From positions 1 to 64,000 of the forward strand of contig JACPTF010000013.1 in assembly GCA_016192915.1 (NCBI GenBank): a stretch of 64,000 nucleotides of DNA, given 5' to 3'. This document shows, piece by piece, positions 3,411 through 62,766 of the stretch. Within the stretch, counting starts at the first letter, position 1. Each line of letters begins with the position of its first letter. The stretch is from Candidatus Woesearchaeota archaeon. GTDB taxonomy: Archaea; Nanobdellota; Nanobdellia; Woesearchaeales; UBA10216. Position numbers and translations under genes: made by a program. Below the pieces are notes generated by a model, which saw only the letters and a list, made by a program, of their open reading frames with translations, made no database searches and was not told where the DNA came from.

Positions 3411-3534
3411 TCAGAATTTTCCACTAGTCTTTGACTAGTGGCAGAACTTGTTGTTCTGCCAAATTCCATTGAGGAAAATTCTGAGCACTAAGAACCACCC
3501 ATATAATCCCACCCGTCTCTGACGGGTGGTTCTT
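3411..3534. repeat. Compound inverted-repeat element (copy 1)
   Basis: An outer stem TCAGAATTTTCC (3411-3422) pairs perfectly with 3473-3484. It encloses two hairpins: CCACTAGTC-ttt-GACTAGTGG (3421-3441) and GGCAGAAC/GTTCTGCC (3440-3460). A second stem AAGAACCACCC (3490-3500) pairs with 3524-3534, with an alternative 9-bp hairpin CCACCCGTC-tct-GACGGGTGG inside. The spacer GAGCAC-N2-AGAACC recurs in a similar element at 44099-44208. It lies between the convergent surface-protein and rps12 genes, so it could also act as a bidirectional terminator. The hairpin with a three-base loop recalls right ends of IS200/IS605-family elements, but no transposase is present. Confidence 0.65.
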
Positions 3535-15504: not shown

Positions 15505-15601
15505 CCCAAATCGTGTACGACACGATTGGGCCCATTCGCAAATCCTGCCTAGCAGGATTGCGCAATCGGCTACTGCCGATTTGCGCCAAAGGCGAATTGG
15601 G
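15505..15601. repeat. Two-part palindromic cluster element
   Basis: Part one is CCCAAATCGTG-tacga-CACGATTGGG. Part two is CCCATTCGC...GCGAATTGGG enclosing AATCCTGC/GCAGGATT and AATCGGC-tact-GCCGATT hairpins. The same two-part layout occurs at 24736-24879 and 38395-38442, and partly at 61026 and 62699. It lies just downstream of tRNA-Lys. Confidence 0.8.
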
Positions 15602-17494: not shown

Positions 17495-19063
17495 TTACGG
17501 CTTTATCGTTACCGTGTTGGAATGGGTGACGAACTTGACGTTCTTCTCTGTGAAGAAGCGGAGCGAGCCTTTCGGAAGGACAAACGTGCCGAGGATGCTC
17601 AGCCTTAAGCGGATTTTGTAAGCCAGGATGCGCTCTTCATGCGCGTCAATGCTTTCAAGCTCCCACTTGACGACAGAGCCGCGGCCGTCATTGAAAATCG
17701 TGGCGGGCTTGAGCGTGCCCATGGAATCGTGCTCAACCTCTGCAATCATAGGAACCCTGTCCATGGCAGTAAGCTTTACGTAAGGCTGCGCGGACCTGTT
17801 TTTCAGGCGCAGTATAACCTTAAGCTCAGAAACCCCTCCCTCCTTGTAACTGATCGCGCTTGCCTCCTTGATAAGCTGCACAGGGCTCTGGAAGAACCTG
17901 TACAGCAGCACAAAAACAATGACAATTATAATGAGATAAAATATGGAACGGTAGCTCTCAACCACCTTAATTGTGGCAGTCTCCTGCTGGCCAAGGGATA
18001 GCTCCCAGGCGTTAAAGCGCTTTCCTTCCTTGCTGATGGAAAAAGACTTGGGATTGCCTTTTGTAAATAGGAACTTAAGCCAGCTCGTTTCTGACTCAAC
18101 CACCTTAGTGTTCCTGACGTTGCCGTCGTTTACGTAAGTTGTCTCGTTAACCCACTTAAAAAAAGACCCTTTCCTTTCAGACTTAACAGGCTTTATCTCA
18201 GAATAGCTTATAACCTCAAACTTCTCAAAAATTGTGGGCTCCAGGGGCTTGTTGTCAACAAAAAGAACAACCTTCAAAGTATCCTTAGCTGGCGGGGTTA
18301 ACGGGTCAAGCTTGACCTTGGCAGAGACAGACTTGCTCTCCAGGGGCCTAAGGCCGGTTAATATCTCCTGCCTTATCAAATCAGATGAAACGCTTGAAAG
18401 GACAACCTTGAGCTGCGAGATGTTCTTGGGGTTGCGGTTAATCAGGTTAACCTTAATCTCAAATTCTTTCCTTGGGTCAACCTGCGAAGGGATTTCAACA
18501 ATCCTGCTAACAGCAGCAAGGTACTCCAATATGAGCTGATTATTGGAACGGATGTTCACAAAGGGAGTAATGGACTGTGACTTCCCGCCTTTCACCGACT
18601 CGATTCCAATGTTAACTGCCCGAAACCCGGGCGGGAAAGCAACAGTCGGCTTCAAAAGAAGCCTCACATTCTCAGAGCCTAAACCGGGGATGTCAACTCC
18701 TGAAAAGTAATGGTACAAGGGATCTGACTGGACACTCCACTCAATATCCGGAGCTGAAATCCTGAACTTTTCAGGGTAATTGCTCAGGCTCTTTATAGTC
18801 AAGTCAAAAGCAGCCTGCCCGTCAAGAAAAATGGAATCATTAACAGCTGTTATTGACACTGTGAAATCAGGAGCGCCATCATCCTGCGCCCGGGCAGAAG
18901 CAGCAAAAACAAGCAGCATGGAAAACGCCAGAAAAGCTGCGAACAAAGTACAATTCCGCTTGCTGCGGAATGTGCTATCGACCTCGGGTCGATACGCATC
19001 GGCTGCCGCCGATGCTGAATCGGACATCGTCCGATTTGTACTTTTTTGAGACGGCTTAAGCAT
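17495..19063 (-). CDS. Secreted/membrane-anchored Ig-like repeat protein
   Basis: About 522 residues from the ATG at 19063 (an upstream in-frame start at 19105 is possible). A hydrophobic signal segment occurs near residues 40-60, then a long beta-rich extracellular region resembling NEW3/CARDB-type adhesion modules, a membrane segment near residue 370-390 (YLIIIVIVFVLLYRFF) and a further beta domain of about 130 residues. Between the start and the signal segment about 30 residues (TMSDSASAAADAYRPEVDST and flanks) are encoded by a palindromic cluster element, so the N-terminus looks extended by insertion. The function is unknown; a surface or transport accessory role is likely. Confidence 0.65.
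   Translation of the reverse strand: MLKPSQKSTNRTMSDSASAAADAYRPEVDSTFRSKRNCTLFAAFLAFSMLLVFAASARAQDDGAPDFTVSITAVNDSIFLDGQAAFDLTIKSLSNYPEKFRISAPDIEWSVQSDPLYHYFSGVDIPGLGSENVRLLLKPTVAFPPGFRAVNIGIESVKGGKSQSITPFVNIRSNNQLILEYLAAVSRIVEIPSQVDPRKEFEIKVNLINRNPKNISQLKVVLSSVSSDLIRQEILTGLRPLESKSVSAKVKLDPLTPPAKDTLKVVLFVDNKPLEPTIFEKFEVISYSEIKPVKSERKGSFFKWVNETTYVNDGNVRNTKVVESETSWLKFLFTKGNPKSFSISKEGKRFNAWELSLGQQETATIKVVESYRSIFYLIIIVIVFVLLYRFFQSPVQLIKEASAISYKEGGVSELKVILRLKNRSAQPYVKLTAMDRVPMIAEVEHDSMGTLKPATIFNDGRGSVVKWELESIDAHEERILAYKIRLRLSILGTFVLPKGSLRFFTEKNVKFVTHSNTVTIKP
18945..19044. repeat. Cloverleaf-like palindromic cluster in a gene's N-terminus
   Basis: The outer stem AAAGTACAA/TTGTACTTT encloses four hairpins in tandem: ATTCCGC/GCGGAAT, TATCGACC/GGGTCGATA, GCATCGGC/GCCGATGC and AATCGGAC/GTCCGATT. 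All stems are perfect and all differ in sequence, which suggests that pairing is maintained. The element is read through in frame by the membrane-protein gene at 17495-19063. Confidence 0.85.
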
Positions 19064-24735: not shown

Positions 24736-24879
24736 CCCAAGTCGCAAATCGGGTTGCGCCCGATTGCTCATTCCGCCGTCCGCGGAATTGCGCTGTTGCG
24801 ACTGGGCCCAATCGGCCGCTGCAAATCCTGCTTTGGCAGGATTGCACAGTCGGCTACTGCCGACTTGTGCCGATTTGGG
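24736..24879. repeat. Large two-part palindromic cluster at the end of the DUF1385 gene
   Basis: 144 bp. On the minus strand part one is CCCAAATCGGC...GCCGATTGGG enclosing AGTCGGC/GCCGACT and AATCCTGC/GCAGGATT hairpins. Part two is CCCAGTCGC...GCGACTTGGG enclosing ATTCCGC/GCGGAAT and AATCGGG/CCCGATT. The outer arms match those at 38395-38442. The DUF1385 reading frame runs into it and takes its last about 37 residues from it. Confidence 0.85.
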
Positions 24880-30687: not shown

Positions 30688-31311
30688 ATGAGCAACCTGA
30701 AGAAGTGGGTACTGGCAGTGGCAATAGCGATAGTCCTAAACCTATTTGTCAACTATGGAATAAGCGTCTTCTACAAAGCACCCCAATATGACGACTTCTG
30801 CAAGGACAGCATGAGGCCCTACCCCTACAAGATCTACCCGGCCGAGCCAGCAGCGCAGCAGCCAAAAGAGTGCGCAACAATAGAGGTAAGCGAGGAGCTC
30901 CAGAAGAGCTGCGGTGAGCAGAAAGGCTACATTAGCTACAAATACAACACTACAGGCTGCCCGACAGAAGCACACTGCGAGCTGTGCGGCAAGATGTTCG
31001 AGGACATTAACCAGAAACGCAACTCCAACGTCTTCGTAATACTGGTTGTTTTTGGCGTGGTTGCCATAGTTGCCGGATTTGTGCTCAAGGCAGAAGCCGT
31101 TGCCAACGGATTCCTCTTCGGCGGAATACTAAGCCTTGTTATTGCAGCAATAAGAAACTGGGGACAGCTCCAGGACATATTCAAATTCATAATTCTCGGG
31201 GCGGTGCTGGCGCTGCTGATATGGATAGGCTACAAGAAAGGAAGCGCGCTTATCCCACAGCACAACCTTTTTCCTAAAAAGGTTGATCAAAAAACGAAAA
31301 AGAAAAAATAA
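30688..31311 (+). CDS. Membrane protein with Cys-rich extracytoplasmic loop
   Basis: 207 residues. A hydrophobic N-terminal segment (about 6-24), then a loop of about 90 residues with six to seven cysteines (CATIEV, CGEQ, GCPTEAHCELCG), then three membrane segments and a basic tail. The ATG is preceded by a purine-rich aggggcagaaag. The final about 20 residues (QHNLFPKKVDQKTKKKK) come from a hairpin-tail repeat at 31264-31299, so the natural C-terminus probably ended near SALIP. Function unknown. Confidence 0.6.
   Translation: MSNLKKWVLAVAIAIVLNLFVNYGISVFYKAPQYDDFCKDSMRPYPYKIYPAEPAAQQPKECATIEVSEELQKSCGEQKGYISYKYNTTGCPTEAHCELCGKMFEDINQKRNSNVFVILVVFGVVAIVAGFVLKAEAVANGFLFGGILSLVIAAIRNWGQLQDIFKFIILGAVLALLIWIGYKKGSALIPQHNLFPKKVDQKTKKKK
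31264..31299 (+). repeat. Hairpin-tail repeat forming a C-terminal extension
   Basis: AACCTTTTT-ccta-AAAAAGGTT (9-bp perfect stem) followed by GATCAAAAAACGAAAA. It is nearly identical to the copy at 42279. It is read in frame as NLFPKKVDQKTK at the end of the membrane protein gene. Confidence 0.75.
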
Positions 31312-31473: not shown

Positions 31474-32325
31474 TCAGGCCGTAACTTCTTCCAAAATAAC
31501 GACTTTGCTATTTTTCACGCCAGCTTTGAATTTCTCTTCTGCAGAGCTGTAGTTGCTGCCCAGCAGCATGCGGTAGTGCATTGGAACAGTTATATCAGCG
31601 GCTATCGTGTTGGCTGCTGCAATGGCCTCGTCAACATCCATCGTATAAGTTCCTCCAATTGGAAGCAGGGCAACGCTGATTTTGCCAAGCTGCTTCATCT
31701 CAGGAATAAAGTCCGTATCGCCAGCATGGTAAACTGTCTGGTTGTTAAGCTGAAATACATAGCCAACCCAGCTGTTGCTTTTCGGATGGTACTGCAAGCG
31801 GCCAGGCTTGACGTTGTACGCTGGAACAGTCCTGAACTTGAAGCCATTAACGTCGTACTCTTTGTTAGGCACAGCATCGATAAATTCAGCGTTGACTTTT
31901 AATTTTTCCTTGCAGCCGCCAGGAACAACGATGACAGTTGTTGGCTTCAGAATCTTTTTGACGGCTGAAGGGTCGCAATGGTCGTAATGGGCATGAGTGA
32001 TGAAAACTATATCAGCCTTTTCGTAGCTGCCGCCCTTGAACTCGAACGGGTCAACGTAGTAGATTTTGTTGCCACTATTCCTATCAGTAAACATAAAACT
32101 GGCATGCCCAAACCACTTCACTGAGCTTAAAACTTCTGGCACCTCAGGCATAATACCACCCCCTGATTCTTCTCCGCTTCCGGCAACATAATCTTCGATA
32201 ACGTACTGCACTGGTTGTTCTGGTTTTTCTGGTTGCCCTTGTTGTTTCTCTGCTGATGAACACCCTGCGATGAATAGCAAAACTACCAAAACCGCTGCAA
32301 GCAGCGGCAGCACTACCAGCTTCAT
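31474..32325 (-). CDS. Metallo-beta-lactamase-fold hydrolase, lipoprotein
   Basis: 283 residues. An N-terminal signal with lipobox-like LLFIAGCSS suggests lipid anchoring outside the membrane, followed by a Gln/Glu/Pro-rich linker. The catalytic domain shows WFGHASFMF, the THAHYDHCDPSAV metal motif, HAGDTDFIPEM and PMHYR, the pattern of the UlaG-like/YtkL branch of metallo-beta-lactamase hydrolases. The substrate is unknown. It converges with the small zinc-ribbon gene at 31316, leaving only 5 nt between stops. Confidence 0.85.
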   Translation of the reverse strand: MKLVVLPLLAAVLVVLLFIAGCSSAEKQQGQPEKPEQPVQYVIEDYVAGSGEESGGGIMPEVPEVLSSVKWFGHASFMFTDRNSGNKIYYVDPFEFKGGSYEKADIVFITHAHYDHCDPSAVKKILKPTTVIVVPGGCKEKLKVNAEFIDAVPNKEYDVNGFKFRTVPAYNVKPGRLQYHPKSNSWVGYVFQLNNQTVYHAGDTDFIPEMKQLGKISVALLPIGGTYTMDVDEAIAAANTIAADITVPMHYRMLLGSNYSSAEEKFKAGVKNSKVVILEEVTA

Positions 32326-37960: not shown

Positions 37961-38719
37961 ATGAAAATTTTAAACGCAGCTGCGGCAATCACAATTATTA
38001 CAATATTTATACTCGTAGCCGCTGTCGTTGTTGCAAGCCCTGAGAAAACCGACAAGTTCGGCTGCCACAAGTGCATGAAGGACTGCGAAAAATACAGCCT
38101 TGTAAAAAACGAGTATCACTGCCACGGCTCAGTCAGCGTGCAAAGCCAAAACATACAAATAGCGCCAAGGATTTACGGCAACACGACATACAGGAGGGTA
38201 GCGCGGATAATAGACGGCGACACACTGACTGCCTATTTCAACGGAAACCAGCAGGTCATCAGGCTTTTGGGCATTAACGCACCGGAAACAAGCCCGAAAG
38301 AAAAGGCGGAATGCTACAGCTCTCAGGCAACCGAGCAGCTGAAAAAGCTAGTAGCCACTAAATTCGTTCTACTGGAAAAGGACAAGCTCCAGAACCCAAA
38401 TCGTGCAGGCACGATTGGGCCCAGTCGCAGCAGCGACTTGGGTGATGATAAAGACAAGTACGGAAGGCTGCTAAGGTATGTCACAGTCATAGGCACGAAC
38501 GTTTCTGTAAACGAGGAACTGGTAAATGGCGGCTTTGCAAAAGCCTACCCTTCACTCACAACAAAAGTGGAAGAGTACAAGAAGCTTGAGAACGCGGCCA
38601 AGGAGAAAAAGCTCGGGATGTGGGGAGAATGCTTCAAGGAAAAGAAGAACGAAACGCTGACAAGGCTTTTCCCGCTTAAGGGGAAAAGGATAGACAAATA
38701 CGGGGAGCACCAGGGATAA
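37961..38719 (+). CDS. Secreted staphylococcal-nuclease-like protein
   Basis: 252 residues with a signal or anchor segment (about 6-26), a Cys/His-rich stretch (CHKCMKDCEKY), then the thermonuclease fold: ARIIDGDTL, IRLLGINAPE (catalytic Arg/Glu) and DKYGRLLRYV (second catalytic Arg), ending LGMWGECF. A 16-codon block NPNRAGTIGPSRSSDLG sits just before DKYGR and is exactly a palindromic element, which other SNases lack; it occupies a surface-loop position. gaggtaa precedes the ATG. Probably a nuclease for external DNA or RNA. Confidence 0.85.
   Translation: MKILNAAAAITIITIFILVAAVVVASPEKTDKFGCHKCMKDCEKYSLVKNEYHCHGSVSVQSQNIQIAPRIYGNTTYRRVARIIDGDTLTAYFNGNQQVIRLLGINAPETSPKEKAECYSSQATEQLKKLVATKFVLLEKDKLQNPNRAGTIGPSRSSDLGDDKDKYGRLLRYVTVIGTNVSVNEELVNGGFAKAYPSLTTKVEEYKKLENAAKEKKLGMWGECFKEKKNETLTRLFPLKGKRIDKYGEHQG
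38395..38442. repeat. 48-bp palindromic element inserted in frame in the nuclease gene
   Basis: CCCAAATCGTGC-ag-GCACGATTGGG followed directly by CCCAGTCGC-agca-GCGACTTGGG. This is the minimal two-part form of the clusters at 15505 and 24736. The length is a multiple of three and the frame is kept. Confidence 0.9.
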
Positions 38720-42253: not shown

Positions 42254-42314
42254 TCCCTGAAAACTGCACGTTCTGCGCAACCTTTTTAATAAAAAGGTTG
42301 ATCAAAAAGAGCTA
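42250..42314 (+). repeat. Hairpin-tail repeat with duplicated gene start
   Basis: An ATG at 42250 begins 28 nt that encode MIPENCTFC, interrupted by AACCTTTTT-aata-AAAAAGGTT and GATCAAAAAG (42279-42310). The mini-ORF ends in a TAA that overlaps the real ATG at 42315 (TAATG), where MIPENCTFC is encoded again with six synonymous changes. The first copy sits in the ATGA overlap with the upstream gene, so it is the original start. Confidence 0.75.
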
Positions 42315-42740
42315 ATGATACCAGAGAACTGTACATTTTGCGGCCTGTGCTGCACATTGACTGTGAGGCTGAGCGAGAGGGACATAAAGCGAATAGAAAA
42401 AGGCAGCGGCCGCAAACGAGAAGACTTTGTTGTTGCCGATAACGACGGGAAGCCGCTGCTGAAGCGGGAAAAGGGATGGTGCACGTTCTTCAAAAGGGAA
42501 GGCAGGGTTGGAATATGCACGATATACGACAGCAGGCCTGACAACTGCCGCGACTTCCCTGGAAAAAGGCTGTGCGACCTTGCAGAAAACCCACTTTATA
42601 GGCACCTGAGCGACAACAACGAAAACAAAAGAGTAAGGCTGCTGCTGAAAAACGCGCCAACTTCAGCAACACCTGCAAAAGCGATAGAAGAAGCCCAGCA
42701 GAATGCAGCAGAGACATTCAAAGCGATTTCTGAAAAGTAG
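42315..42740 (+). CDS. YkgJ-family cysteine-cluster protein
   Basis: 141 residues. The N-terminal CTFCGLCC, then GWCTFF, GICTIYDSRPDNCRDFPG and the last Cys CD match the YkgJ/UPF0153 family, which carries a metal (zinc or iron) cluster and has unclear function. The C-terminal about 50 residues are Ala-rich and helical. The end overlaps the convergent nth gene by 23 nt. Confidence 0.85.
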   Translation: MIPENCTFCGLCCTLTVRLSERDIKRIEKGSGRKREDFVVADNDGKPLLKREKGWCTFFKREGRVGICTIYDSRPDNCRDFPGKRLCDLAENPLYRHLSDNNENKRVRLLLKNAPTSATPAKAIEEAQQNAAETFKAISEK

Positions 42741-44098: not shown

Positions 44099-44208
44099 TC
44101 AAAAACCACCGGTCAGAGACCGGTGGCATTTTTTGACGCTCAGAATTCCACGAACCGGTGGTTTTTGAGCACACAGAACCCCACTGATCATAGATGAGTG
44201 GAATTCTG
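44099..44208. repeat. Compound inverted-repeat element (copy 2)
   Basis: TCAAAAACCACCGGT (44099-44113) pairs perfectly with 44154-44168, and also locally through CCACCGGTC-aga-GACCGGTGG (44106-44126), so two structures compete. CAGAATTCCAC (44141-44151) pairs perfectly with 44198-44208. The spacer GAGCAC-N2-AGAACC is shared with copy 1 at 3411-3534. It lies between divergent genes. Confidence 0.7.
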
Positions 44209-61025: not shown

Positions 61026-61082
61026 CGGCAAAAACACAAGTCGAGATACGCTCGACTGTGCCCAGGCGACAGCGGTCGCCTT
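61026..61082. repeat. Two-hairpin palindromic element
   Basis: CAAGTCGAG-atacg-CTCGACTG followed by CCCAGGCGAC-agcg-GTCGCCTTGGG. It has the two-part layout of the clusters at 15505 and 38395. It lies between tRNA-Pro and rpl37ae. Confidence 0.75.
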
Positions 61083-61180
61083 GGGGCTTTACCAAAAAAC
61101 GGCACTCAAAAGCTTGACCAAAAAACCATAATCCCAATAGATTTATAAACCGCCCCTTAATCCAAAACTACTAAGATAAA

Positions 61181-62680: not shown

Positions 62681-62766
62681 ATGACCTTTTTGCCGAAACC
62701 AAGTCGTCAATGACGACTGGTCCCATCGCCTATGGCGATGTGGAAAGGTCAATCAAAAACCGCACA
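62681..62766 (+). repeat. Nested hairpin-tail and palindromic element at the GTPase start
   Basis: GACCTTT (62683) pairs with AAAGGTC before AATCAAAAACCG, the hairpin-tail repeat. Its loop carries CCAAGTCGTC-aat-GACGACTGG and CCCATCGC-cta-TGGCGATGTGG, the two-part palindrome. The element ends at the canonical ATG (62767). A TATA-like ttaaatac lies at 62671-62678, and an ATG at 62710 within the element opens the GTPase frame. Confidence 0.7.

Follow-up and report, generated by a model that had tools for sequence, protein, structure and literature searches.

How a 48-bp palindromic sequence came to lie, in frame, inside a gene for a protein of the staphylococcal nuclease (SNase) family is the question raised by this locus. 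The window, to which all coordinates without a prefix refer, is the whole stretch of 64,000 nucleotides that was analyzed. The host open reading frame matches the Pfam SNase domain (PF00565, E = 2.5e-19) and can be aligned with staphylococcal nuclease itself (phmmer, 3e-12). Its hydrophobic N terminus is likely a signal peptide or an anchor, as inferred from sequence alone and without a prediction tool. The features of the locus are as follows.

37961 to 38719, plus strand: SNase-family protein of 252 amino acids (ORF, Pfam, phmmer).
38276 to 38278, plus strand: Asn106, within GINAPET, which reads GIDAPET in four congeneric orthologues and in staphylococcal nuclease (alignments).
38391 to 38446, plus strand: insertion site CAGAA^[element]^TGATGA; the empty form of the closest relative is CAGAC^TGATGA, with no visible target duplication (orthologue comparison).
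38395 to 38442, no strand assigned: two-hairpin palindromic element, here called C-type, in frame, 48 bp or 16 codons (folding, covariance model, absence from four congeneric orthologues).
38395 to 38419, no strand assigned: hairpin 1, CCCAA(A)TCGTGC-AG-GCACGATTGGG, outer arm with one extra A (fold, covariation).
38420 to 38442, no strand assigned: hairpin 2, an inverted copy of the hairpin 1 design, CCCAGTCGC-AGCA-GCGAC(T)TGGG, outer arm with one extra T (fold, covariation).
38453 to 38467, plus strand: DKYGR motif, with its Arg at the place of Arg87 in staphylococcal nuclease (alignment to that protein).

The original prediction had described a 48-bp two-hairpin element at 38395-38442 in an SNase-fold protein, adding exactly 16 codons next to DKYGR. 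Both parts held. The covariance model recovered identical ends, and the segment folds strongly as DNA (z = -5.1, with 0 of 200 shuffles equally stable) and as RNA (z = -4.7, with no shuffle as stable). The gain of 16 codons is a net count, since codons are split at both junctions; because the end codons are divided as AA/C and GG/T, the inserted peptide, which includes AGTIGPSR, reads NPNRAGTIGPSRSSDLG. The 3' end of the insert lies just upstream of DDK-DKYGR, and the Arg of DKYGR (Arg87 in staphylococcal nuclease) has a catalytic role in SNase.

To locate the empty site, orthologues were sought by a protein search covering 59 related genomes, which yielded four congeneric sequences of 63-79% identity. 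All four lack exactly these 48 bp, and their flanks align cleanly on both sides; the junction reads KLQ/KIQ-x-DDKDKYGR or KLQ-K-EDKDKYGR, with 16 residues missing (4/4). At the DNA level, the alignment across the junction is free of gaps, with CTCCAGAA^TGATGATAAAG here (element omitted) against CTCCAGAC^TGATGACAAGG in the closest orthologue. More distant SNase homologues and staphylococcal nuclease lack the insert as well. The alignment with homologues that had been proposed as a check thus came out as predicted, and no close homologue was seen to carry the same loop with unrelated DNA, which would have refuted the claim. We infer that the SNase copy very probably arrived after the lineage had split from its closest sampled relative. 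A rival explanation takes the loop for an ordinary one, kept by selection for its function or inherited with the ancestral SNase fold, and treats the palindrome as incidental. The insert does adjoin the active-site loop, but its absence from all four close orthologues and from staphylococcal nuclease, together with the recurrence of this DNA between genes and, in every frame, within unrelated ones, leaves this reading practically ruled out.

The gene as a whole is under purifying selection, given a dN/dS of 0.14 against the closest orthologue. Together with copies in essential genes, this supports the claim that the element is tolerated inside proteins, with one caution, which is Asn106. Only this genome's SNase, among the five orthologues, has Asn for the conserved Asp of GIDAPET, a residue that serves as a calcium ligand in SNase. 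The protein carrying Asn106 might be a weakened enzyme, a possibility that rests on sequence alone.

The insert belongs to a family. Its unit consists of two abutting inverted hairpins, CCCAARTC-stem-GAYTGGG/CCCARTC-stem-GAYTTGGG (the slash marks where they abut), with one bulged base in each outer arm, and the consensus is CCCAARTCG-n-CGAYTGGG/CCCARTCG-n-CGAYTTGGG, simple copies measuring 46-54 nt. At this size, the element is too short to encode a transposase and is very likely non-autonomous. The core motif occurs at about 47 places in the 1.2-Mb Woesearchaeota genome, compared with 1-2 for a reversed-pattern control, and the covariance model gave 93 matches over both strands, or about 47 full copies; the element at 38395-38442 is therefore not a product of chance. 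An Rfam search matched only tRNAs. Three further copies, all found by segmentation and without an assigned strand, lie in the window, two of them containing two-hairpin elements of another kind, here called GC-type.

15505 to 15601: second C-type copy, with a nested GC-type element at 15538-15584.
24736 to 24879: third C-type copy, with two nested GC-type elements (24744-24791 and 24821-24868).
61035 to 61085: variant C-type copy (CACAAGTC..GACTGTG / CCCAGGC..GCCTTGGG).

Altogether, 104 C-type copies were segmented from this genome and its relatives. In 36 aligned copies, paralogues picked for their conserved core, stem cells were paired in 97.1% of cases versus 84.9% after shuffling, and the covariation score was 0.310 versus 0.081, the signal being lost when the partner was slid. 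The covariation shows that the structure is kept; it does not identify the process by which it is kept, and the copies are paralogous and were selected for the core. The conserved framework is free of stop triplets on both strands, and all six frames are open in 49 of 89 simple copies, compared with 4.7% of shuffles.

The distribution of the family is narrow. Using the covariance model, we counted about 47 copies in this genome, about 49, 46, 40, 23, 11, 9 and 7 in seven congeners, and, elsewhere in the family, about 20, 3 and 2 in three further genera, whereas 40 genomes, drawn from as many other families of the order, yielded none. These counts are both-strand matches halved, and the highest should be read as at least the number given. 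The exact pattern was absent outside Woesearchaeota MAGs among 84,980 species genomes. A search of 2.9 million viral contigs with this pattern returned nothing, which gives no sign of a viral carrier. It is very likely that the element has multiplied within a single genus-level group of Woesearchaeota.

Copies inside genes were identified by ORF, giving 22 cases, most of them backed by Pfam or by orthologues; two further plausible cases (L056:6236 and L052:14995) were left out. Nine lie in this genome, in the genes for SNase, AspRS, IleRS, DnaG (two copies), STT3, Trm1, FtsY and a membrane protein. Across the genomes, the hosts also include the CCA-adding enzyme, PurL, D-aminoacyl-tRNA deacylase, glycosyltransferases and an intein. 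The length is divisible by 3 in 21 of the 22 in-gene copies versus 47 of 81 elsewhere (p = 7e-4), with the reservation that the in-gene set was chosen by an open spanning frame, which biases it toward multiples of 3. The sole exception, of 52 nt, is compensated by an adjacent 1-nt deletion. All three reading frames are used (8/8/6), so no particular peptide is favored. Each copy would add 16-18 residues, or 31-32 when nested, translation being inferred from the sequence without transcript or protein data; the peptide inserted in AspRS, for example, includes SAATDWAQSQQR. In-gene copies may survive where the stop-free framework happens to land in frame in a tolerant loop. Species-specific loops of 16-18 residues in these archaeal proteins (NPNR..IGPSR..SDLG, PKS..WAQS..RLG, TQI..IGPSR..TWE) are probably inserted repeats and not adaptations. 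As a separate observation, the intein copy (L074:2604-2654) lies in an intein with splicing and LAGLIDADG domains within the gene of a PilB-like ATPase, so that one mobile element sits inside another.

These lengths bear on a second rival explanation, namely, that the insert is transcribed and then removed or bypassed, by splicing or ribosome hopping, leaving the protein unaltered. In its favor, the RNA fold predicts strong hairpins in the mRNA, and the byps of yeast mitochondria are a precedent. Removal or bypass would, however, require neither the frame nor the absence of stops, yet all but one of the 22 in-gene copies have lengths that are multiples of 3, and the exception is compensated; moreover, no bulge-helix-bulge motif was seen, although this was judged only by eye. 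We therefore regard this explanation as very improbable.

Direct evidence for movement comes from empty sites in other genes. The gene for D-aminoacyl-tRNA deacylase holds a copy in each of two species, but neither the copy nor its position is the same, and each serves as the other's empty site; in AspRS the exact 48 bp are missing from six congeneric orthologues. Further orthologous empty-site pairs were found for FtsY, a DHHA1 protein, a PAP2 protein and a metallo-beta-lactamase, the last of which lies in the window.

31480 to 32136, minus strand: metallo-beta-lactamase-fold gene, the empty site for the element in a relative's orthologue at L106:2405-2452 (orthologue comparison, Pfam).

In DnaG of this genome, two copies sit inside a hairpin repeat of another family (T-type), whose empty form in the relative G004 is GCGAAAAA^GGTCAATCAAA^AACAG. 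Weaker pairs, with agreement at the protein level and less exact junctions, were obtained for the CCA enzyme, an NTP transferase and one glycosyltransferase. The original prediction that the element is mobile is thus supported by precise, lineage-specific insertions, including reciprocal ones in one gene of two species, and both mobility and insertion into proteins are, on these comparisons, very likely. The targets comprise intergenic DNA, other hairpin repeats and genes.

At the clear empty sites, CCC...GGG is set seamlessly between neighboring bases, and target duplication is not visible. The flanks fit RAR^R at 80 of 104 copies, compared with 10% of random positions oriented alike; their consensus is A-rich purines next to the CCCAA of the framework, and in 21 of the 22 in-gene copies it is the sense strand that carries these A-rich flanks. 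These junctions weigh on a third rival, a transposon-derived miniature element (MITE) that depends on a conventional DDE transposase for its movement. The C-type element is indeed small, non-coding, inverted-repeat and multi-copy, but the clear empty sites show no target duplication, two separate hairpins make up the unit instead of a core between two terminal repeats, and exact half-hairpins do not flank genes. We consider a DDE-mobilized MITE unlikely.

Overall, the explanation that best fits these data, and that we hold to be very likely, is that a small, non-autonomous mobile element has spread in one Woesearchaeota genus and that the SNase insert is one of its copies. How it moves can only be inferred. 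The C-type unit would move as folded single-stranded DNA, and an enzyme acting in trans would recognize the folded strand in the manner of REPINs or of IS200/IS605 ends. Taken alone, and resting on anatomy, this single-strand mechanism seems to us marginally more apt to be wrong than right.

A more specific proposal is that an IS200/IS605 or RAYT-like Y1 transposase mobilizes the element in trans, which would make it an archaeal REPIN. For it speak the inverted doublet of bulged hairpins, the lack of visible target duplication, the conserved 5' flank bases and the compensatory stem changes, an anatomy matching the descriptions of IS200 and REPINs (PMC3116915, PMC6006769). Against it, the Y1 (HUH) transposase domain PF01797 was not found in this genome (92.9% complete) nor in G001, G003, G005, G006 and G007, several copy-rich genomes among them; PF01797 loci do occur in G002 and G004, but no C-type hairpin was present in the loci read. 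There is also no GTAG/GT[AG]G guide foot, and only the IS200-type subclass 1.1 is reported in archaea (PMC6006769). The absence of the transposase is limited by the draft state of the MAGs, which are 82-93% complete. The proposal remains possible, no more.

The preferred reading, a non-autonomous element moved in trans, needs an enzyme, which may be encoded in sequence that the MAG lacks or on a separate replicon, or may be of a different type. No gene-bearing parent was found with the exact pattern (divergent halves lay outside the search); exact half-hairpins are rarely seen outside doublets and do not flank genes. This genome has a TnpB-like gene (L161:1792-2973; G000 C3:85643) for which no TnpA was found, and it is not bounded by C-type ends. 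Two candidates were set aside. A TnpB locus in G001 has T-type hairpins and C-type copies nearby, but no C-type ends bound the gene, and tyrosine recombinases, being present in each of the eight genomes of the genus and in every control genome, do not discriminate.

In-frame palindromic elements have been described in Rickettsia and Wolbachia (PMC3767692, PMC10969869). Such insertions are known chiefly from these bacteria, and their generality as a source of new protein segments is unsettled. The Rickettsia (RPE) and Wolbachia elements resemble the C-type element in that they have entered a wide range of unrelated genes without loss of frame, often essential ones, and are tolerated there as extra residues. 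The claim that this is the same kind of event therefore holds for the event, but not for length or frame use: RPEs measure 100-150 bp (PMC3767692), against 46-54 nt for simple C-type copies, and the latter differ in being a hairpin doublet, in using all three frames and in their archaeal host. Several C-type sites also differ between species instead of being common to orthologues, and the exact pattern appears only in Woesearchaeota records, unlike the RPEs borne by Rickettsia and Wolbachia; no sequence relation is claimed.

REPIN/REP-BIME systems with RAYT (PMC3116915, PMC6006769) share with the C-type element a replicating inverted doublet of short hairpins, compensatory stem changes and non-autonomy. 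The C-type element differs from them in having no GTAG, GT[AG]G or CGTC foot and no spacer between its halves, in the absence of a detected RAYT/TnpA-REP gene, and in lying often inside protein genes, whereas REPIN/REP sequences are extragenic; REPs are likewise described as mostly extragenic in RepRanger, which does not mention DPANN (PMC12306157). The subterminal hairpins of IS200/IS605 are likewise small, with a short conserved 5' flank and no target duplication, but those elements have a gene-bearing parent and TnpA, neither of which was found in this genome. Archaeal MITEs (Sulfolobus, haloarchaea; PMC10969869) are also small and non-autonomous, but owe their movement to autonomous transposons that have matching ends and act in trans, whereas for the C-type element neither parent nor target duplication was found. 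The same review treats in-frame fusion mainly for RPEs and archaeal MITEs by taxon only.

As to the claim that no such archaeal element was known, we found no prior account of the C-type element, nor of any archaeal palindromic element lying in frame, in the literature searched, which left out most subscription papers. The class of event is known from Rickettsia and Wolbachia; the archaeal element, its double-hairpin form, the seamless junctions and the nesting are likely undescribed, bearing in mind that absence from the literature searched is no proof. The same outcome is thus met in a second domain of life, in DPANN archaea, and the insertions are recent enough for exact empty sites to persist in sister species. 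Because such sites exist, movement without target duplication, the protein loops that accept insertion and the enzyme become testable. A bolder reading, which we offer only as a possibility, is that archaea harbor a class of selfish DNA built as double hairpins and inserted seamlessly. Its families would nest in one another and enter core genes (tRNA synthetases, primase, SRP receptor), and the enzyme moving them would lie outside the known hairpin transposases.

Several other hairpin repeats accompany the C-type copies. The GC-type elements (GCAARTC..GAYTGCGCARTC..GAYTTGC, about 48 nt), three of which are nested in the window as listed above, in several cases sit exactly at the CCCARTC^G arm of C-type copies, and comparison of L095:6948-6995 with its non-nested twin at L095:3556 allows a GC-type insertion to be seen directly. 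Another two-hairpin sequence (TATCGACC..GGTCGATA / GCATCGGC..GCCGATGC) occurs at 18976-19015 of the window and is nested in the C-type copy at L056:7413-7505; others are nested at L103:569 and L055:6577.

The T-type palindromic family, GACCTTTTT-loop-AAAAAGGTCAATCAAAAAC, is represented in the window at 31263-31300 and 42278-42315 (with the tail motif also at 62747), near position 6040 of L048, and in L156 and L083. By a loose motif test, a T-type repeat surrounds 46 of 103 C-type copies, and the repeat itself lies in frame in DnaG and probably in PurL. Finally, hairpin repeats of the form CCACCxGTC..GACxGGTGG recur at 3509-3529 and 44106-44126 of the window and near positions 1470 of L008 and 9890 of L053, some of them beside C-type copies.
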